Shown here piece after piece: positions 4,981-41,787 of a stretch of 42,034 nt of DNA. This stretch comes from Candidatus Rokuibacteriota bacterium. Its GTDB lineage: Bacteria; Methylomirabilota; Methylomirabilia; Rokubacteriales; CSP1-6. A program made the position numbers and the translations under genes. The DNA is taken from NCBI GenBank assembly GCA_003220495.1, contig QHSP01000063.1:1-42034 (forward strand), given 5' to 3'. Below the pieces are notes generated by a model, which saw only the letters and a program-made list of their open reading frames with translations, was not told the origin of the DNA and searched no databases. Position 1 is the first letter of the stretch; the number at the start of each line of letters is the position of its first letter.

Positions 4981-5009
4981 TCGCCGGCGCCGGCGCGCCG
5001 CGGTAGCCC

Positions 5010-6857
5010 GTGGTTCTGACCGTGCGTGTTCCGGCGCTGCTCGGCCTCGGACTCCTCGCCCTTCTCTGGGCTTCCGGTTCCTCGTCCGGCGCTCCCTCGG
5101 ACTCCTTCCGCGCCGGGATCGAGCGCGTGATCGCCGAAGCCGGCAAGACTCCGGAGCGCACGCGCCTGCAGCGGCTCTTCGAGCTCCACTGGGACTATCT
5201 CCTTCAAGAGTTCCCGGAGTTCGCCACGGAAGTCGGCGTCTTGGGGCAGAACGATCGATGGACCGACCGGTCGGCGACCGCGATCGCCCGCCGCAAGGCC
5301 GATCTCGAGTTGCCGGTCAAGGCGCTCGCGACGATCGATCGAACGAAGCTCGCGCCCGAAGACGCGCTCAACTACGACCTCTTCAAGCGCCAGGCCGAGG
5401 CTCAGCTCGAGGGGCGACGTTTTCCGTGGGAGCTGATGCCGCTGAATCAGCTATACGGCATCCAGCACAGCGTCCCGCAGATCCTCGGCGAGCAGATGCC
5501 CGCGCGGACCGCGACGGACTACGAAGCCATGCTGAGTCGTCTGCGCGGGACGGCCGCGCTCGTAGACCAGACGATCGCCGCGATGAAGGAGGGGTTGCGT
5601 CGCGGCGTCACGCCGCCCAAGATCACGCTGCGCAACGTCGTCGCGCAGGCCGACGCGATCCTCGTCGAGGATCCGGCGACGAGCCCGCTCCTCACCGCCT
5701 TTCAGAAGATTCCCGAGACGGTTCCGGCTGACCGGCGCGAAGCCGTGAGGGTCGAAGCGGCGACGCTCCTGAAGGACCAGTCGCTGCCGGCGTTCCGGCG
5801 GCTGCGCGATTTCCTCGCGAGCGAGTACGTGCCCAACTGCCGCGATTCGCTGGCGGCCGGGGCCTTGCCCGACGGACCGGACTGGTACGCCTACCTGGTC
5901 GCCCAGTCGACGACCACGCGTTTGACACCGAAGCAGATTCACGAGATCGGCCTCGAAGAGGTCAAGCGGATCCGCGCCGAGATGCAACGGCTGATGCGCG
6001 CGACCGGCTTCGCCCAGGACCTCGCCGCCTTCTTCGAATTCCTGAGGACCGATCCGCGCTTCTTTTTCTCGCGGCCCGAGGATCTGCTGGCCGGCTATCG
6101 CGAGATCGCCAAGCGCGCCGATCCCGAAGTGATCAAGCTCTTCGGCCGGGTGCCGCGCCTGCCGTATGGTGTCGTGCCGATGCCGGCGCACAACGCGGCG
6201 TCGCGGAGCGCGGGCGCCTACGACGCGGGCTCGCTGGCCGCGGGCCGGCCCGGGTATTTCTCGGCCAACCTTTCGGCTGTCGAGACGCGGCCAAAGTGGG
6301 AGATGGAGGCGCTGGTGCTCCACGAGGCCGTCCCCGGCCATCACCTGCAGATCGCCCTCGCCCAGGAGCAGCCGGATCTGCCGAACTTCAGGAAGTACGG
6401 CGGGTACGAAGCCTACGGCGAAGGCTGGGCGCTCTACGCCGAGACGCTGGGCCGCGACATGGGCTTCTACAGGGATCCCTACTCGCACTTCGGAGCGCTC
6501 AACTATCAGATGTGGCGGGCAGTCCGGCTCGTGGTCGACACCGGCATTCACGCATTCGGCTGGAGCCGCCAGCAGGCGATCGACTACTTCAAGGCCAACT
6601 CCGCCAAGCCCGAGCGAGAGATCGTGGTCGAGATCGATCGCTACATCGTCTCGCCCGGCCAGGCGCTGGCCTACAAGATCGGCCAGCGGAAGTTCCTGGA
6701 GCTTCGCGAGCGAGCCGCGCGGGAGCTCGGTGCGAGGTTCGACCTCCGCGCCTTCCACGACGCGGTGCTGGCCGAAGGGGCGCTGCCCCTGGACGTGCTC
6801 GAGGCGCGGATCGACGCTTGGATCGCCCAGCGCAAGGCGTCCGGAACTATGCCTTGA
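5010..6857 (+). CDS. DUF885 family protein, exported, with zinc-peptidase-like motif
   Basis: A 615-residue protein starting at GTG. A hydrophobic N-terminus (VPALLGLGLLALLWASG) is a signal peptide, so it acts outside the cytoplasm. The family's conserved LHEAVPGHH (His438, Glu439, His444) and downstream YGEGWALYAE (Glu471) give an HExxxGH plus Glu arrangement resembling a metallopeptidase site. Family members are mostly uncharacterised, so peptidase activity is inferred. Length is typical. It follows the dienelactone hydrolase by 29 bases and may share its transcript. Its last 11 bases overlap, tail to tail, the end of the amidohydrolase on the other strand. Confidence 0.85.
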   Translation: MVLTVRVPALLGLGLLALLWASGSSSGAPSDSFRAGIERVIAEAGKTPERTRLQRLFELHWDYLLQEFPEFATEVGVLGQNDRWTDRSATAIARRKADLELPVKALATIDRTKLAPEDALNYDLFKRQAEAQLEGRRFPWELMPLNQLYGIQHSVPQILGEQMPARTATDYEAMLSRLRGTAALVDQTIAAMKEGLRRGVTPPKITLRNVVAQADAILVEDPATSPLLTAFQKIPETVPADRREAVRVEAATLLKDQSLPAFRRLRDFLASEYVPNCRDSLAAGALPDGPDWYAYLVAQSTTTRLTPKQIHEIGLEEVKRIRAEMQRLMRATGFAQDLAAFFEFLRTDPRFFFSRPEDLLAGYREIAKRADPEVIKLFGRVPRLPYGVVPMPAHNAASRSAGAYDAGSLAAGRPGYFSANLSAVETRPKWEMEALVLHEAVPGHHLQIALAQEQPDLPNFRKYGGYEAYGEGWALYAETLGRDMGFYRDPYSHFGALNYQMWRAVRLVVDTGIHAFGWSRQQAIDYFKANSAKPEREIVVEIDRYIVSPGQALAYKIGQRKFLELRERAARELGARFDLRAFHDAVLAEGALPLDVLEARIDAWIAQRKASGTMP

Positions 6858-33947: not shown

Positions 33948-35225
33948 ATGAGCAACTCGGGCGAGCGGTGGGACTACGACGTGGCGGTCATCGGCGGGGG
34001 GCCGGGCGGCTCCAGCGCCGCGACTGCGCTGGCCCGGCGTGGCCGGAGCGTGGTCGTGCTGGAGCGCGAGCGGTTTCCGCGCTTTCACATCGGCGAATCG
34101 CAATTGCCGTGGACCAACGAGATCTTCCGCGCCCTGGGCGTTCGCGACACGATCGCGGCGTCTGGCTTCATCGAGAAGTGGGGCGCGAGTTTCCGGGGGC
34201 CCGACGGCCCGGACGAGCGATATGCCGACTTCCAGAACGCCCGGGAGACGCCCACGCCCCAGACGTTTCAGGTTCTTCGGGAAAAGTTCGACGAGATTCT
34301 GCTCCGCCATGCGGAGAAGTGCGGCGCTCGGGTGCTCGAGGAGCATCGGCTCGTCGATGCGGTCTTCGACAGCGACGGCGTCACGCTCCATTTCGCGGGT
34401 CGAGACGGCGGCGCCGATACCGTGCGGGTCGGCGTGGTGGTCGATGCGTCAGGACGAGCCGGCGTGCTGGTGAAGCGCTTCGGCCGCCACGAGCATGATC
34501 CGCTCCTGCTGAACATCGCGGTCCATGCGCAATACGAGGGCATCCCCCGAGCCTCCGGCCGGCGCGCAGGGGACATCCGGATGTTCACGCGCCCGGACAT
34601 GGGTTGGCTGTGGTTCATTCCGCTCTCGGACGCCGTCATCAGCGTCGGCGCCGTGATCCCGCAGGTCGTTCACCGCCGCGAGTCCAGGCCGACGCCGGAG
34701 GAGAGTCTGGCCCACTATCTCGCCGACACGCCCGCCGCGCTGCCGCTGCTCGAGAGAGCGCGGCGTGTTTCCCCCGCCCGGTTTGACGCCGACTACTCCT
34801 ATCTGGCCACCCGCATCGCCGGGGACCGCTGGGTCGCTGTCGGCGACGCGGCGGCGTTCCTGGATCCGGTGTTCTCTACCGGCGTGATGCTGGCCATGCA
34901 GGGAGGTCTCGAAGTCGCAGAGGCGATCGATTCCGGCCTGCGCGCCGGCGACGTGTCGGTGCGCGCTTTCGCCCGCTATGAACGCGCCGTGCGCGGCCGC
35001 TATCACCATTTCCGACGCTTCGCGGTCGGGTTCTACGACCCCGCCTTCCGCAAGCTCTGGTACTCGCGCCCGCCTTTGCGCAGCATCTTCGACGCCGTCG
35101 TATCCGTGCTGGCCGGGAACTGGCGCCCGTCGGCAACAACGCGGGTCCTGGTCGAAGTCTTCTTCGCGGTCGTCGCCGTGAAGCGCGTTCTGTTGCGGCT
35201 CGGACGCCTTCGCCGCGCTCGCTAG
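33948..35225 (+). CDS. FAD-dependent halogenase-like oxidoreductase
   Basis: A 425-residue flavoprotein. The FAD-binding GGGPGGSSAA is at residues 16-25 and the second FAD motif VGDAAAFLDPVFSTG near 298-312. Two features recall flavin-dependent halogenases: FHIGESQLP (46-54) and the WxWxIP signature as WLWFIP (220-225). A lysine, Lys77 in FIEKWGASFRG, stands where PltA/CmlS-type halogenases have the lysine thought to carry the chloramine. The geranylgeranyl-reductase-like and other p-hydroxybenzoate-hydroxylase-fold enzymes share part of this, so halogenation is plausible but unproven. The stop codon overlaps, tail to tail, that of the haloacid-dehalogenase-like gene. Start ATG 33948 follows CGGGA. 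Confidence 0.75.
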   Translation: MSNSGERWDYDVAVIGGGPGGSSAATALARRGRSVVVLERERFPRFHIGESQLPWTNEIFRALGVRDTIAASGFIEKWGASFRGPDGPDERYADFQNARETPTPQTFQVLREKFDEILLRHAEKCGARVLEEHRLVDAVFDSDGVTLHFAGRDGGADTVRVGVVVDASGRAGVLVKRFGRHEHDPLLLNIAVHAQYEGIPRASGRRAGDIRMFTRPDMGWLWFIPLSDAVISVGAVIPQVVHRRESRPTPEESLAHYLADTPAALPLLERARRVSPARFDADYSYLATRIAGDRWVAVGDAAAFLDPVFSTGVMLAMQGGLEVAEAIDSGLRAGDVSVRAFARYERAVRGRYHHFRRFAVGFYDPAFRKLWYSRPPLRSIFDAVVSVLAGNWRPSATTRVLVEVFFAVVAVKRVLLRLGRLRRAR

Positions 35226-35923
35226 CAACCAAGGCGGGCTGCAAGATCCTCGAGATCCGTCGCGACGATATCCCAGTCTGATGCTGCCTTGAGGTCAGTC
35301 GTTTGTCCCGGACCGTATTCCAGCGGGCGCGGGACAAATGCCGTCGCCATACGCTCGTGGCGCGCCGCCTCGAGATCGTAGTTGTGGGCGGCAACCATCA
35401 AGACTTCTTCGGGCTTGAGACCGAGAAGAGAGATGGCCGTTCGATACGCTTCCGGCCGCGGTTTGTAGCAGCGGGCATTCTCTGCGGTGATGACGCAGTC
35501 CCACGGGAGCCCGGCAAATCGGGCGAGCTCGACCATCCCGATGAAGCTCGCGTTGGAAAGCGGCGTGACGATGTACCGGACCTTCAGACGGCGAATCCCA
35601 GCGACAGCGTCAGGCCATGGCCGGAGCCGCCACCAAACGCGAGCAAGCGCGTCGATCTCTTCACTCGTAAGACGAGTGATGCCATGTGTAAGGAGGAGTT
35701 CGTCTAACCGGGTTCGATATATTGCGTCAACCGTCGTCCACGGCATCTCGCCGCGATTGACCTTATCCATGGCGGGGCGGTAGGCGGCCTTCCACTCGTC
35801 GAGAAATCGGACGCGGTCGAACGTGAGGCCCTTTCGCGCGGCTAGCGACTGGAGCTCAGCGAGAACGCTCGTCCGCCAGTCAACGACCGTACCGTACGTA
35901 TCGAAAGTGAGGGCTCGAATCAT
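35222..35923 (-). CDS. HAD hydrolase, haloacid dehalogenase type II-like
   Basis: A 233-residue HAD-superfamily hydrolase. Motif I is FDTYGTVVDW with nucleophile Asp8; Asp at the usual +2 position is replaced by Tyr, as in L-2-haloacid dehalogenases. Motif II is TPLSNAS, motif III has Lys in CYKPRPEAYRTA, and motif IV is HNYDLEAAR. This Asp-x-Tyr-Gly-Thr pattern marks the haloacid-dehalogenase branch over phosphatases. Its ATG overlaps the stop of a short upstream reading frame (ATGA), and its stop overlaps the halogenase-like gene by 4 bases. A role in removing halogen from a small acid is inferred. Confidence 0.85.
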   Translation of the reverse strand: MIRALTFDTYGTVVDWRTSVLAELQSLAARKGLTFDRVRFLDEWKAAYRPAMDKVNRGEMPWTTVDAIYRTRLDELLLTHGITRLTSEEIDALARVWWRLRPWPDAVAGIRRLKVRYIVTPLSNASFIGMVELARFAGLPWDCVITAENARCYKPRPEAYRTAISLLGLKPEEVLMVAAHNYDLEAARHERMATAFVPRPLEYGPGQTTDLKAASDWDIVATDLEDLAARLGC

Positions 35924-36223: not shown

Positions 36224-37366
36224 TCAGTCCGCCGCGGCGAGACCCGAGCGCGCGGTCGGGCTCGCGGCAGGCGAAGTGCGCCAGAGCGCTCCCGCGAGCG
36301 CCAGGAGCAGCATGGCCGCCGCGGTCACCAGCACGACCTGCCACCCTCGGTGGTGGAGAAGTTGCCCGGACGACAGCGAGGTCAACGCCGCCGTCCCGAA
36401 GACCAGGAAGTCGTTGGCGGCCTGAGTGCGCGAGCGCTCGGCCGGGGTGTAGGCCTTCGTCACCAGGGTCGAGCCCGCCACGAACATGAAGTTCCAGCCG
36501 ATCCCGTTGAGGGTCATGGCCAGCAGGAAGTTGGGCACGCCCACGTCGACGAAAGCCGCCGCCACGCCGAGGACGTTGAGTGCGATGCCGAGAAGGATGA
36601 GGGGGCGCTCGCCCCAGCGCTGGACGAGTGTGCCGGTGAAGAAGCCGGGCAGGAACATCCCCACGACGTGCCACTGGATGACGAAGGCCGTGTCAGCAAA
36701 CGTGTGGTGATGGGCCATCATGGCCAGCGGGGTGCCGGTCATCAAAAGGTTCATCACCCCCTGGCCCATCATCTGGGCGAGGACCGCCGCGATGAAGATC
36801 GGCTGGCGCACGATCTCCGTGATCGAGCGGACGGGACCGCCGGTGCGGACGGCCTCCTCCGTCGGGGGCGGCATGCGGAGGCGGACGAGCAACGCGGAGG
36901 TGAGCAAGCCGAGCACGGGGACGCAGAGATACGAGCCCAGGTACGTGGTGTCGAAGAGCTGCACTGTCCCCCGGGCGAGCATCGGACCGATGAACGCGGC
37001 GGCCAGGCCGCCGGCCAGCACGAAGGAGATGGCGCGGCTTCGGAGCTCGGGAAGCGACGTCTCGGCCGCGGCGAAGCGGTACTGCTGGGCGAAGGCCACG
37101 GAGACACCGAGGAGGAGCGCCGCCGCGGTGAGCAGCCAGAAGTAATCGTAGGCCAGGGCGACCGCGCTGACCAGGCCGCCGGCCGTCGCGCACAGCGCGC
37201 CCACCACGAAGCCCAGCCGGCGGCCCACGCGCTTCATCAGCAGCGAAGCGGGGATCGTGCTGAGGGCGGTGCCGATTACGGACATCGTCGACGGCAACGT
37301 GGCCAGGGCCTTGTTGCTGGCCAGGGCGTAGCCGGCGAGGCTGCCGACAGCGGAGATGAGCGTCAC
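36224..37366 (-). CDS. MFS transporter
   Basis: A 380-residue major-facilitator protein with about 11-12 hydrophobic segments. The TM2-TM3 loop reads LLMKRVGRRLGFVVG. The C-terminal half has WHVVGMFLPGFFTGTLVQRW and TPAERSRTQAANDFLVFGT. The first possible start is GTG 37366, but TM1-like sequence begins earlier in the same frame (NVLLLTLTQATSSTSV), and no ATG, GTG or TTG occurs between it and the stop of the preceding gene. Either a CTG (37429) is used, the start has been lost, or TM1 is shortened. It lies between two copies of a small secreted-protein gene. The substrate is unknown. Confidence 0.8.
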   Translation of the reverse strand: MTLISAVGSLAGYALASNKALATLPSTMSVIGTALSTIPASLLMKRVGRRLGFVVGALCATAGGLVSAVALAYDYFWLLTAAALLLGVSVAFAQQYRFAAAETSLPELRSRAISFVLAGGLAAAFIGPMLARGTVQLFDTTYLGSYLCVPVLGLLTSALLVRLRMPPPTEEAVRTGGPVRSITEIVRQPIFIAAVLAQMMGQGVMNLLMTGTPLAMMAHHHTFADTAFVIQWHVVGMFLPGFFTGTLVQRWGERPLILLGIALNVLGVAAAFVDVGVPNFLLAMTLNGIGWNFMFVAGSTLVTKAYTPAERSRTQAANDFLVFGTAALTSLSSGQLLHHRGWQVVLVTAAAMLLLALAGALWRTSPAASPTARSGLAAAD

Positions 37367-37933: not shown

Positions 37934-38776
37934 ATGAGCTCCGCCCGTAGGCAGGTCGCCGTTGTGGTTGGAGCAACCTCCAAGTGGCAGTCGGACGGAC
38001 GCAACACCAAGCTGGCGCACGGCAAGGTGCTCGACGACAGCGACATCCCCGTTGGGATGCGCTGGGGCGTCGGCGGCGCGACCGCCCAAAAATTCGCCAA
38101 GGAGGGGTTTGTTGTCGTCTTGACGACTCGCAACACCGCCAATGCTTCGGCGCTGGAGAAAGCCATCATCGAGCAAGGCGGCGAAGCCCTGATCGTCGAG
38201 CTGGACCTGGTGTCGCGCGAATCCATATCGCGGGCGTTCGCCACGATTCGCAAGCAAGTTGGTGACCCGGATGTCCTGGTCTACAACGCCGGGTATCTCG
38301 AGGGGCGTGACTTGCCGCCGGACAAAGAGCTCCTTGAGCATGTCCCGGTCGAGATTTTCGAGACCGCCCAGCACATCGCCAGCCGCGGACCGTTCCTCGT
38401 CGCGCAGGAAGTCTTGCCCGCCATGCGACGGCGCGGTGCCGGCTCCTTCCTCATCTCGAACAATCAGTTCTCGTTGCGTGGTCGCAAACGCCTGACCGGG
38501 CAGTCGTTATACTATCCGCGCGTGATGATGCGCACCCTGGCGCAGGTGCTGACGGAGGAATATTCCGAGCACGGTGTCCACGTGGCCAATGTCGTGATCG
38601 ACGGCCTCATCGACTCGCCAGGCACCCGAGCCCTTCCGAGAGCCCGACAGAATCCTGAGATCGTGATGAATCCCGTGAAGATTGCCGAGGCGTTCTACTA
38701 CCTACACACTCAGGACAGATCCTGCTGGACGCACGAGCTGCAGTTGACGCCGTTTTCAACCAAGCCGAGCTTTTAG
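37934..38776 (+). CDS. SDR-family oxidoreductase with atypical nucleotide loop and no YxxxK
   Basis: A 280-residue Rossmann protein of the short-chain dehydrogenase family. The first strand (VAVVVGAT) leads into the glycine-rich turn, but about 28 residues (roughly 15-43) are inserted before the rest of the turn, GVGGATAQKFAKEGF. The NAG motif is present (YNAG, 117-120). The catalytic tetrad is incomplete: where Tyr-x-x-x-Lys is expected the protein reads SLYYPRVMMRTLAQ, with Tyr193 and Tyr194 but no Lys at +4. It may be catalytically inactive, or use Arg196 or another residue. It stands between a secreted-protein gene (divergent) and a PAC2 gene (same strand, 32 bases downstream). Confidence 0.8.
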   Translation: MSSARRQVAVVVGATSKWQSDGRNTKLAHGKVLDDSDIPVGMRWGVGGATAQKFAKEGFVVVLTTRNTANASALEKAIIEQGGEALIVELDLVSRESISRAFATIRKQVGDPDVLVYNAGYLEGRDLPPDKELLEHVPVEIFETAQHIASRGPFLVAQEVLPAMRRRGAGSFLISNNQFSLRGRKRLTGQSLYYPRVMMRTLAQVLTEEYSEHGVHVANVVIDGLIDSPGTRALPRARQNPEIVMNPVKIAEAFYYLHTQDRSCWTHELQLTPFSTKPSF

Positions 38777-38808: not shown

Positions 38809-39708
38809 ATGGACCACGTAGTATTCGACCACGAACCGCCGGCGAACCTGACGACGATGGTGATAGCGTTTGGGGGATGGATCGACGCCGGCCAAGCGGC
38901 CACGGGCGCCTTACGCCACCTGGTCCGCGACCTCTCGGCCTCGCGGCTGGCTCGCATAGACCCTGAGCAGTTCCTCGTGTTTACCCAGGAACGGCCCAAC
39001 GTGCGGATGCGGGCTGACGAGAGCCGCGAGATCGACTGGCCGCAGAGCGAGTTCTTCGCGTGCCCCCCAGGCGATGGCCGAGAGGGGCTCCTCCTGTTTT
39101 CCGGTGGGGAGCCCCATCAGAGGTGGCGCACCTACACGAAGGCGTTCCTCGATGTGGCCGAGCGCTGCGGGGTGAGGCGGATCGTCTCGCTCGGAGCCCT
39201 CCTGGCCGGCGCTCCTCATACGCGACCCATCCGTGTCACAGGACGCTGCACCGACCCCACCTGGCGGTCGGTCCTCGAGGCCTGGGGCATTTATCGTCGT
39301 CCAACCTACGAAGGCCCGACCGGTATTTCCACGATCGTCCTGGACGCCGCGGAGCGACGTGGAATGTCGCATCTCGGCTTCATGGGGCAAGCGCCCCACT
39401 ATCTCCAGAACGCCGAGAATCCAGCGGCGATCCACGCCCTGTTGACCTACGTTGCCCGCCTGCTCCACCTCCGTCTGGACATGTCCCAGTTCGCCGAGGC
39501 CATCAAAGAGTTCCGCACTCAATGTGATCGCGAAGTGGCTCGGAATCGCGCCACGCGAGAGCACGTGCAGCAACTCGAGCAGCAGTACGACGCGTCGGCC
39601 GCCGAGGAGCCGTCAACGCTCCCGAGCGGAGAGCTCGACTCGGACAAGCTGATGCAGGACCTAGAGGACTTCCTGCGGAAGGAGCGGGAAGGCGGTCAGC
39701 AAAGCTGA
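38809..39708 (+). CDS. PAC2 family protein (proteasome assembly chaperone-like)
   Basis: A 299-residue protein. The PAC2 hallmark is MVIAFGGWIDAGQAATGALR near residue 18-37, followed by IDPEQFLVFTQERP, GLLLFSGGEPHQRW, GVRRIVSLGALLAGAPHTRP and a C-terminal helical tail with EHVQQLEQQYDAS and DLEDFLRKER. Bacterial PAC2 proteins are mostly actinobacterial and of unknown role; archaeal and eukaryotic relatives help assemble proteasomes. GAGAGG precedes the ATG. No proteasome gene is in the window. It faces the family-5 binding-protein gene tail to tail with 7 bases between stops. Confidence 0.85.
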   Translation: MDHVVFDHEPPANLTTMVIAFGGWIDAGQAATGALRHLVRDLSASRLARIDPEQFLVFTQERPNVRMRADESREIDWPQSEFFACPPGDGREGLLLFSGGEPHQRWRTYTKAFLDVAERCGVRRIVSLGALLAGAPHTRPIRVTGRCTDPTWRSVLEAWGIYRRPTYEGPTGISTIVLDAAERRGMSHLGFMGQAPHYLQNAENPAAIHALLTYVARLLHLRLDMSQFAEAIKEFRTQCDREVARNRATREHVQQLEQQYDASAAEEPSTLPSGELDSDKLMQDLEDFLRKEREGGQQS

Positions 39709-39715
39709 TGGCCCT

Positions 39716-41254
39716 TCACGGCTTCTTCAGCTGGAGGTCTTCGTACGGCGCCGAGTAGGGGTAGCCGGGGATCAAACCGACACCGGCTTGCTCGACGCGC
39801 GCGGAAACTCCCGCCATGGGGCTCAGCTCGTAGATGGGGACGTGCATGACGCGCTCGTGCAAGATTCGCTGGATCTGATGTAGCAACGCTTCACGCTTCG
39901 TTCGATCGATCTCGCGGGCCTGGCGCTGGAACAAGTCCTCCACCTCAGGAAGGACACCGTACGCGAAGATGCCGGTCGTGGTCACGTAAGCCTCGAGTCT
40001 CGTCGCCGCGTTCCCGCCGGAGCCGTTGAGCCCCATCAGAACGCCTTTGAGCCTCTTTTCGCGCCAGGCGGTGAGGAACGCCGCCCGCTCCAGCGTGCGG
40101 ATGCGCGTGCGGATGCCGACGGCCCCGAGATAGCCGGCCAGGGCCTCGCCCATGGCATACAACGGCGGATACGGATAGAACTCTCCGGCGTCGAAGCCGC
40201 CCGGGTAGCCGGCCTCGGCCAGAAGCTGTCTGGCCTTGCCGGGATCGTACGGGGGCGCCTCGAGCGAAAGCGCGAACTCGAAGGATCGAGGAACGATCGA
40301 GCCGGTCAGGCGCGAGGTGCCGAGCGACTCGGCTTGGTTCACGGCCTCGCGATCGAGCGCCAGGCTCGCCGCTTGCCGGACACGCTTGTCGTACCATGGC
40401 GACTTCGGATCCCACTGGTCGGGCAGATCGAGCCAGAAGACGCCGTTGCCGCCTGCTCTCGACACGATCCGCACGTGAGGAGTCCGACGTAGGTCCTGGG
40501 CGACCGGCCCGTTGACCTGGAAGATGACGTCGACGTCGCCTTTCTTGAGCGCGGCGCTGCGCGTCGTGTCGTCGGGCATGACCTTGAACACGAGCCGCTT
40601 GACCTGAGGCTCCTTCCGCCAGTAGCCCTCGAACGCCTCGGCGACCAGCTCCACCCCGGGATTGAACGAGACGAATCGGTACGGGCCGGCGCCGACGGGC
40701 GCCTTCTTGAAGCCATCGTCGCCGACCCGCTCGACGTATTTCCGGGGAACGGTCCATCCCACGCCTGACGCCGTGGTGCCGTAGTACGTCAGGAAATCCG
40801 GCCAGGGGTCCTTGAGGAGGAACCGCACCCGCCCGGGATCCACGACCTGCACCTCCCGGACCTTTGCCTTGAGGAGCTTAGCGCCCGCGCCCCGATAGCG
40901 ATCGAAGGAGAACTTGACGTCCTCGGCGGTCACGGGCTCGCCGTTGTGGAACCTCGCGCCCTTTCTGAGGACGAACTCATAGGTGAGGCCATCCTTCGAG
41001 AGCGCCCACGACTCGGCCAGGCTCGGGGTGTGGAGACCGCCTGGCATCGGCTTCACCAGCGCATCGTGGAGGGCGTAGAGCACCATGAACGGGATGATCG
41101 CGCCTTCGGTCTCCGCCGGGTCGAGCCATCGGGCGGCCAGGGACACGTGCACTCCCCACGTCATGACCCCCTCGGGCGCCGCGTGGAGCGGGCGCGCCGG
41201 GGCGAGGAGGAGACACGCGAGCGCGACGAGCGCGGCCAGGCTACGCGAGGGCAA
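39716..41254 (-). CDS. ABC transporter substrate-binding protein, family 5 (paralogue of 29276-30799)
   Basis: A 512-residue periplasmic binding protein with signal peptide LAALVALACLLLAPARPLHA. Landmarks are GVMTWGVHVSLAARWLDPAE, HTPSLAESWALSKDGLTYEF, ARFHNGEPVTAEDVKFSFD, VGAGPYRFVSFNPGVE and RQLLAEAGYPGGFDAGEF. It closely resembles the binding protein at 29276. The likely start is TTG 41254, since upstream codons in this frame lie inside the broken amidohydrolase and no signal peptide precedes it. It overlaps the amidohydrolase end by 14 bases, so the two were coupled. No permease genes follow. Confidence 0.88.
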   Translation of the reverse strand: MPSRSLAALVALACLLLAPARPLHAAPEGVMTWGVHVSLAARWLDPAETEGAIIPFMVLYALHDALVKPMPGGLHTPSLAESWALSKDGLTYEFVLRKGARFHNGEPVTAEDVKFSFDRYRGAGAKLLKAKVREVQVVDPGRVRFLLKDPWPDFLTYYGTTASGVGWTVPRKYVERVGDDGFKKAPVGAGPYRFVSFNPGVELVAEAFEGYWRKEPQVKRLVFKVMPDDTTRSAALKKGDVDVIFQVNGPVAQDLRRTPHVRIVSRAGGNGVFWLDLPDQWDPKSPWYDKRVRQAASLALDREAVNQAESLGTSRLTGSIVPRSFEFALSLEAPPYDPGKARQLLAEAGYPGGFDAGEFYPYPPLYAMGEALAGYLGAVGIRTRIRTLERAAFLTAWREKRLKGVLMGLNGSGGNAATRLEAYVTTTGIFAYGVLPEVEDLFQRQAREIDRTKREALLHQIQRILHERVMHVPIYELSPMAGVSARVEQAGVGLIPGYPYSAPYEDLQLKKP

Positions 41255-41680
41255 ATCCGTAGAGCCGAGCCGCGGTCTCGCGAACGATCTGCCGCCGCTC
41301 TTTGTCCGGGACCCCTTTGAAGTCACGCTCGACGACCTCGCGCGAACGCGGCCAGGTCGACACCGTGTGGGGATAGTCGGAGGACCACATGATGTTCTCG
41401 ACCCGATGAACTCGCGGCTCGCGACGCCCACCCGATCGTCGATGAAGGTCGCAAAGATCTGGCGCCTGAAATACGCCGGAGAAGATCAGCACTCCCATGC
41501 CCTGGGCGAGATGGGTCGGCGGCACCCCTTCCAGCACCAGGTAGGCACCCGGCTTTTGCCCGGGAGGTCCTCCACCACACGTGGCGCGCGGTCACGGAAC
41601 TGCTTGTCGATGCGCTCGACCCAGAGGTCGCCCGGCTCGTTCACGTGCGAATCGGCGGAAATCAGCCTCGGCTCGGTCAT
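41241..41680 (-). pseudogene. Amidohydrolase, frameshifted and internally deleted
   Basis: From ATG 41680 (after TTGGAGGTG) the protein begins MTEPRLISADSHVNEPGDLW, the start of an amidohydrolase-2 enzyme with its D-x-H metal motif. Near 41550 the frame shifts (the continuation LEGVPPTHLAQGMG is in another frame). A second shift near 41405-41420 separates DDRVGVASREF from ENIMWSSDYPHTVSTWPRS, the C-terminal metal-Asp region. Only about 146 codons remain of the usual 350-400, so roughly 200 residues of the barrel are gone. The 3' end (AARLYGFALA) overlaps the binding-protein start. Two shifts and a deletion make it non-functional. Confidence 0.8.
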
Positions 41681-41787
41681 GATCCACCTCCAAATCAGTG
41701 ACGCGGGAACGGGGGGCTTGAGGGCGGGCACTCACGCGAACGGCCTCCAATCAACCGGGCCTGTTCACCGCCTCGAAAGTGTGGCCG

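Follow-up and report, generated by a model that had tools for sequence, protein, structure and literature searches.

The window analyzed here, a stretch of 42,034 nucleotides of contig QHSP01000063.1 from Candidatus Rokuibacteriota bacterium, contains an ORF for an SDR-fold protein that is followed by a PAC2-family gene (Table 1). A preliminary description had reported a stop-free SDR frame with an interrupted nucleotide-binding turn and no catalytic Tyr-x-x-x-Lys, and the ORF does translate without a break. The GC contents at the three codon positions, 0.63/0.43/0.79 for the ORF and 0.61/0.43/0.93 for the insertion alone, resemble those of coding sequence. The Pfam adh_short (PF00106) match (E 6.7e-23) spans residues 40-233 only and so begins just ahead of W44-G45-V46-G47, where the glycine motif resumes. 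The start of the PAC2 gene is preceded by the sequence GAGAGGA; among the loci clustered, the PAC2-SDR pairing was found only in L001-L006 and the window.

Other parts of the window deserve mention. A gene for a tryptophan-halogenase-like FAD protein (33948-35225, + strand; E 1.4e-32) and one for a haloacid-dehalogenase-like hydrolase (35222-35923, - strand) lie tail to tail with a 4-base overlap, and an MFS transporter gene (36224-37366, - strand) comes after the latter. At 41241-41683 (- strand), near the contig end, two short overlapping frames are likely the ends of one amidohydrolase whose middle is missing; the C part matches Amidohydro_2 (E 1.5e-10), and the N part has an amidohydrolase-like start with no Pfam match. 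Decay of the gene or a collapse during assembly would account for this arrangement.

Table 1. Features of the SDR gene and its 3' neighbor (positions in the window; residues of the SDR-fold protein)
Feature	Position	Strand	Basis or remark
Ribosome-binding-like GAGGAA	37922..37927	+	Read by eye; 6 nt 5' of the ATG
SDR-fold ORF, 280 aa, no Tyr-Lys pair, split glycine loop	37934..38776	+	Translation, Pfam, alignment, model
Strand beta-1, residues 8-12	37955..37969	+	Predicted model
Glycine motif, first half, G13-A14-T15	37970..37978	+	Invariant, 67/67
Insertion, residues 16-43	37979..38062	+	Absent from the paralogues compared
Glycine motif, second half, W44-G45-V46-G47, start of helix A	38063..38074	+	Alignment, model
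R66 after strand beta-2	38129..38131	+	67/67 and 20/20 paralogues
NAG motif, N118-A-G	38285..38293	+	N118 and G120 invariant; A119 almost invariant
Loop after NAG, residues 121-137	38294..38344	+	Alignment
Active-site segment, residues 180-200 (SLRGRKRLTGQSLYYPRVMMR)	38471..38533	+	16/21 columns invariant
C-terminal S-C-W-T-H-E-L-Q-L-T-P, like the C-termini of 3h7a and paralogues	38720..38752	+	Alignment
PAC2-family gene, possibly co-transcribed with the SDR gene	38809..39708	+	E 1.2e-48; 32 bp 3' of the SDR gene

The interruption of the nucleotide-binding turn was evident in the translation, which reads VVGAT, then 28 residues, then RWGVGGATAQ; the figure of 28 extra residues is a count relative to the usual GxxxGxG spacing. 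Compared with 20 paralogues that lack the catalytic Tyr, the glycine loop is 27 residues longer in 18 cases and 26 residues longer in one, the remaining paralogue having no N-terminus in the reading frame used. The loop described earlier as altered is split by an insertion but not lost: G13, G45, and G47 are present in all 67 rows of alignment A1, on which our motif and column counts are based. The contiguous TGxxxGxG turn of the classical SDR superfamily is absent as such, the glycines being kept but separated. Within the insertion, K17, W18, Q19, G22, R23, T25, L27, H29, G30, D34, D35, and R43 are invariant; with 12 of its 28 columns invariant, compared with 113 of 280 in the whole protein, the insertion is conserved like the rest and not more so. 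When residues 8-52 were used as the query by themselves, no PDB sequence matched at E up to 10, and none of the best 60 of 212 PDB profile matches starts before profile position 28.

The replacement of YxxxK by SLYYPRVMMR was likewise supported by translation and alignment. Aligned with seven ordinary SDRs from the same genome, all of which carry both Tyr and Lys, the protein has L192 where these have the Tyr and R196 where they have the Lys. YxxxK occurs in none of the 67 rows in columns 181-215, and L192 and R196 occur in every one. Among eight regions counted, which had been chosen after the alignment was inspected, invariance is highest in segment 180-200 (P 6e-4). The stretch before the catalytic helix is 2 residues longer than in the paralogues, and the loop preceding this helix holds K185, invariant in 67/67; K185 may thus be a Lys elsewhere in the site, which the preliminary description named as a refuting find. 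A second extension, of 6-7 residues, follows the NAG motif, where Y121, G124, R125, L127, P128, E132, L133, and E135 are invariant. The invariant polar residues specific to the family include K17, W18, Q19, R23, T25, H29, D34, D35, R43, and W44 in the N-terminal part and Y121, R125, E132, E135, K185, R186, Y193, Y194, and R196 farther on. The conserved polar residues around the site speak against a simple loss of function.

The preliminary description had proposed a search for homologues that combine the insertion with the loss of the Lys. When each species was represented by one genome, a scan yielded 269 relatives, of which the best 80, with 76-94% identity, were examined; the other 189 could include intermediates, and the bait consisted of short query peptides, some of them within the insertion or active site, which favors relatives having these parts. 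The whole-protein searches were independent of the bait peptides. The full-length insertion together with L192 and R196, and hence both features sought, was common to 79 of the 80 relatives fetched, the 80th (L064) being cut by a stop. An insertion of the same length in so many relatives is more than chance, and the earlier suggestion of a subfamily with different chemistry therefore stands as far as the subfamily is concerned. Across the genomes searched, the lowest member has 68% identity (L106, insertion present) and the next best protein 38% (L115, no insertion), and no protein falls into this gap.

An assembly error, a frameshift, or a decaying gene might have produced such a frame. Locus L064 holds an internal stop, and copy G063, from the window's phylum, consists of two pieces that lie in separate frames; damage or poor assembly has therefore affected some copies. 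For the window copy, however, this explanation was ruled out by the common and conserved insertion, which has equal length in 79 of the 80 fetched loci, and we regard the explanation as having a negligible chance. The dN/dS values relative to the window were low (0.05-0.13 in the seven comparisons printed), and pN was 0.089 in the insertion and 0.102 elsewhere at similar pS (231 pairs from 22 sequences). The gene, insertion included, is under purifying selection, and the ORF represents a real subfamily under selection, neither an assembly error nor a decayed gene. The L064 copy is a Rhodospirillaceae SDR gene (5001-5837 of that locus) and adjoins a full-looking amidohydrolase gene.

According to record titles, the carriers belong to Rokubacteria, SAR202/Dehalococcoidia Chloroflexi, Binatota/Binatia, Alphaproteobacteria (including Reyranella, Belnapia, and Rhodospirillales), Acidimicrobiaceae, and a few others; the carrier at L053, Belnapia arida T18, is titled as a strain and not as a metagenome bin. 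With 8 to 26 first-ranked candidates scored per genome, matches were found in 11 of 95 genomes of the window's phylum, its own included (10 of 94 others), one of them in two frames. The family was carried by 9 of 289 genomes in the class of Belnapia, counting the centre genome, and by the centre genome only in three further groups (1/301, 1/148, and 1/198); in the group of 148, one more genome had a 38% paralogue only. On a quick tree built from the 67 rows, 17 of them unlabelled, 8 class labels required 10 changes (minimum 7, shuffled mean 25), indicating that the tree mostly follows class. The high identity across phyla and the patchy presence suggest some horizontal transfer. Among plasmids, with an E limit of 1e-25, the one record found was a 35% relative that matches from query residue 45; among viral contigs, four pattern matches included no relatives.

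Although the absence of Tyr-x-x-x-Lys was confirmed, the loss of the Tyr is common to a wider group that includes PDB entry 3h7a and all 20 paralogues. The Tyr site of the paralogues is occupied by F in 15, H in 4, and L in 1, and the Lys site by K in 16 and M in 4, against R in the subfamily. In these alignments, the glycine-loop insertion, the change of Lys to Arg, and the two smaller loop extensions are specific to the subfamily. The short-chain dehydrogenase of Rhodopseudomonas palustris in 3h7a was the top PDB profile match (83.5 bits, next 70.3), with a structural Z of 27.1, an rmsd of 2.0, and 25% identity over 211 aligned residues of a 212-residue chain. Like the subfamily, it has no catalytic Tyr (Phe in 3h7a), and its C-terminus SAWTFEMEIRPY resembles the SCWTHELQLTPF of the window protein; it differs in keeping the Lys (FASAK), in a glycine loop without the insertion, and in a shorter loop after NAG. 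The C-terminal segment around W265 replaces the glycine-rich tail that SDRs usually have; W265 is present in 67/67 members and 20/20 paralogues, and T266 in 70% of the paralogues. We take the 3h7a-like Tyr-less group to be CDD SDR_c10. In the open-access literature, we found no paper on this subfamily or on the 3h7a group (SDR_c10, cd05373).

In a 38-row tree, the insertion family formed a single clade (100/100) with a long stem (1.64) and fell on the side of the paralogues, apart from the seven canonical SDRs (100/100); the paralogues had been chosen for their similarity to the query, and the family lies within or beside them. Because the Tyr is absent from all 20 paralogues and the tree groups them in this way, its loss probably preceded the insertion. 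A separate SDR clade (L110, L123, L126, and L132) has SHA-x-AM in place of YxxxK and a WWN-type C-terminus, with neither Tyr nor Lys. The subfamily is well bounded. Its Pfam match is to SDRs in general only, and none of the best 25 of 196 NCBIfam rows for the query reached its own cut-off, nor did any of the best 25 of 159 and of 119 for two paralogues.

FabI enoyl-ACP reductase is a divergent SDR with a Y-x6-K site. The subfamily has the same spacing in Y193-x6-R200 (67/67), with Arg instead of Lys. Since R200 is general in the paralogues (20/20), where position 193 is not Tyr, the spacing is probably incidental and says little for or against a FabI-type site. A precedent for the Leu is BcSDR of Burkholderia cenocepacia, termed a divergent SDR by its authors, which has Leu at the catalytic Tyr site, conserved in its relatives, and NADP+ in the crystal (PMC11614110). 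It differs from the subfamily in keeping TGxxxGxG and the Lys (LxxxK), and Ser or Asn has been proposed as its base (PMC11614110).

Our first structural model (pLDDT 74.8) was weak around the site, and a second alignment included nine ordinary SDRs encoded in the flanks of the fetched loci. The second model (pLDDT 83.0, pTM 0.87) has SDR topology, and pTM, structural matches, and Pfam all point to a predicted Rossmann fold of the PF00106 type. The NADP-bound 3rkr tops the matches listed (Z 28.2, rmsd 2.4, 218 aligned) with many other SDRs close behind, and all 1000 chains taken from the Foldseek list reach Z 8. In addition to strand 1 (8-12), the model has helix A at 45-56 and a short helix at 23-29. 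The insertion leaves and re-enters at the nucleotide-binding turn, with pLDDT below 50 at 18-26; at this low confidence, it might just as well obstruct the cofactor site.

All 67 rows retain the three glycines, R66, D91, and N118, and in SDRs these positions sit around the cofactor. Their retention favors the predicted binding of NADP(H). The position of R66 often carries a basic residue for NADP in SDRs (PMC11614110). We therefore propose, at what we judge to be an even chance, that the protein is a functional NADP(H)-binding enzyme of a distinct SDR subfamily, with rearranged acid/base groups and a part in the catabolism of organic compounds. The insertion would either cover the cofactor site at its adenosine/pyrophosphate end or reach into the active site, R196 would make the ribose contact that normally falls to the Lys, and another invariant polar residue would perform the proton transfer of the Tyr; candidates are H29, D34, D35, Y121, R125, K185, Y193, Y194, and H267. 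We think it rather doubtful that residues of the insertion (e.g., H29, D34, and D35) and the two family-specific loops supply the acid/base groups of both Tyr and Lys; if they do, the cofactor loop and catalytic site have merged in one new structural element. The absence of both Tyr and Lys counts against an NADP(H)-dependent enzyme, as does an insertion no more invariant than the rest of the protein.

The same absence of both catalytic residues is what a non-catalytic SDR would display, that is, a pseudoenzyme acting as a structural or regulatory partner, as in heteromeric SDRs, or as a ligand sensor. In heterotetrameric BbsCD, one subunit is inactive, and the structural matches include BbsCD (7pcs) alongside many ordinary SDRs. 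However, the flanks of the 80 loci contained no constant SDR partner gene nearby, some loci being short and a distant partner gene lying outside the reach of this search. Nine other SDR genes were found in the flanks of 7 of the 80 loci, and one of these genes (in L022) is adjacent and on the same strand. The invariant polar active-site segment also seems more than a plain scaffold would need, and we consider such a role improbable, slightly more so than the alternative below.

A protein with the SDR fold might instead work without a cofactor, as a lyase, hydrolase, or isomerase with no hydride transfer, in the manner of halohydrin dehalogenases; the split and filled glycine loop would then be a substrate or anion pocket, with Arg for Lys. 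Halohydrin dehalogenases share with the subfamily the SDR fold, the Arg in place of Lys, and a changed nucleotide loop (PMC11976700), and the many invariant charged residues in three loops would fit this alternative. They are defined by S-x12-Y-x3-R and T-x4-F/Y-x-G (PMC11976700), and these motifs occur in none of the 67 rows in columns 151-230 and 1-60, respectively, so membership in that family was rejected. The missing motifs also count against a cofactor-free mechanism, as do the three glycines, R66, D91, and NAG Asn, whose retention sets the subfamily apart from halohydrin dehalogenases. We regard such a mechanism as unlikely, if only a little less so than a non-catalytic role.

The neighborhood bears on the catabolic part of the proposed NADP(H)-dependent function. 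Neighboring genes were picked by a composition-based choice that missed the L022 SDR gene, which a separate flank search recovered. Of 88 adjacent same-strand genes counted, 75 were scanned, giving 47 Pfam families (25 listed); they included 16 Amidohydro_2 genes, 5 TPP enzymes, 5 alpha/beta hydrolases, and 3 luciferase-like monooxygenases. Many are not catabolic (e.g., SfsA, sulfate permease, and PPK2), and the neighborhood is not constant. Amidohydro_2 made up 16 of 75 genes versus 1 of 25 in the control, genes beside other SDRs (Fisher P = 0.063, in a test that treats related loci as independent). This P value and the inconstant, partly non-catabolic neighborhood count against a catabolic NADP(H)-dependent enzyme. 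Two amidohydrolases are weakly similar to L-fucono-1,5-lactonase (44.5 and 63.7 bits, cut-off 400). A TPP enzyme adjoins the SDR gene in L020, L031, L063, L069, and L079; for the one compared (L069), the nearest solved structures are oxalyl-CoA decarboxylase and 2-hydroxyacyl-CoA lyase. The main text of PMC7176365, on 2-hydroxyacyl-CoA lyase, contains neither 'short-chain dehydrogenase' nor 'SDR'. The TPP-enzyme neighbors are a possible lead to the pathway; overall, the neighbors hint at catabolism and fix no pathway.

Few enzyme families are as large as the SDRs, whose members are as a matter of routine labelled NAD(P)-dependent oxidoreductases. For this slowly evolving subfamily, carried mostly by uncultured bacteria, an NAD(P)-oxidoreductase annotation is not to be trusted. 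With the Tyr and Lys gone and the nucleotide loop rebuilt, the subfamily is a clean case in which to test how such an SDR functions or what it turns into.
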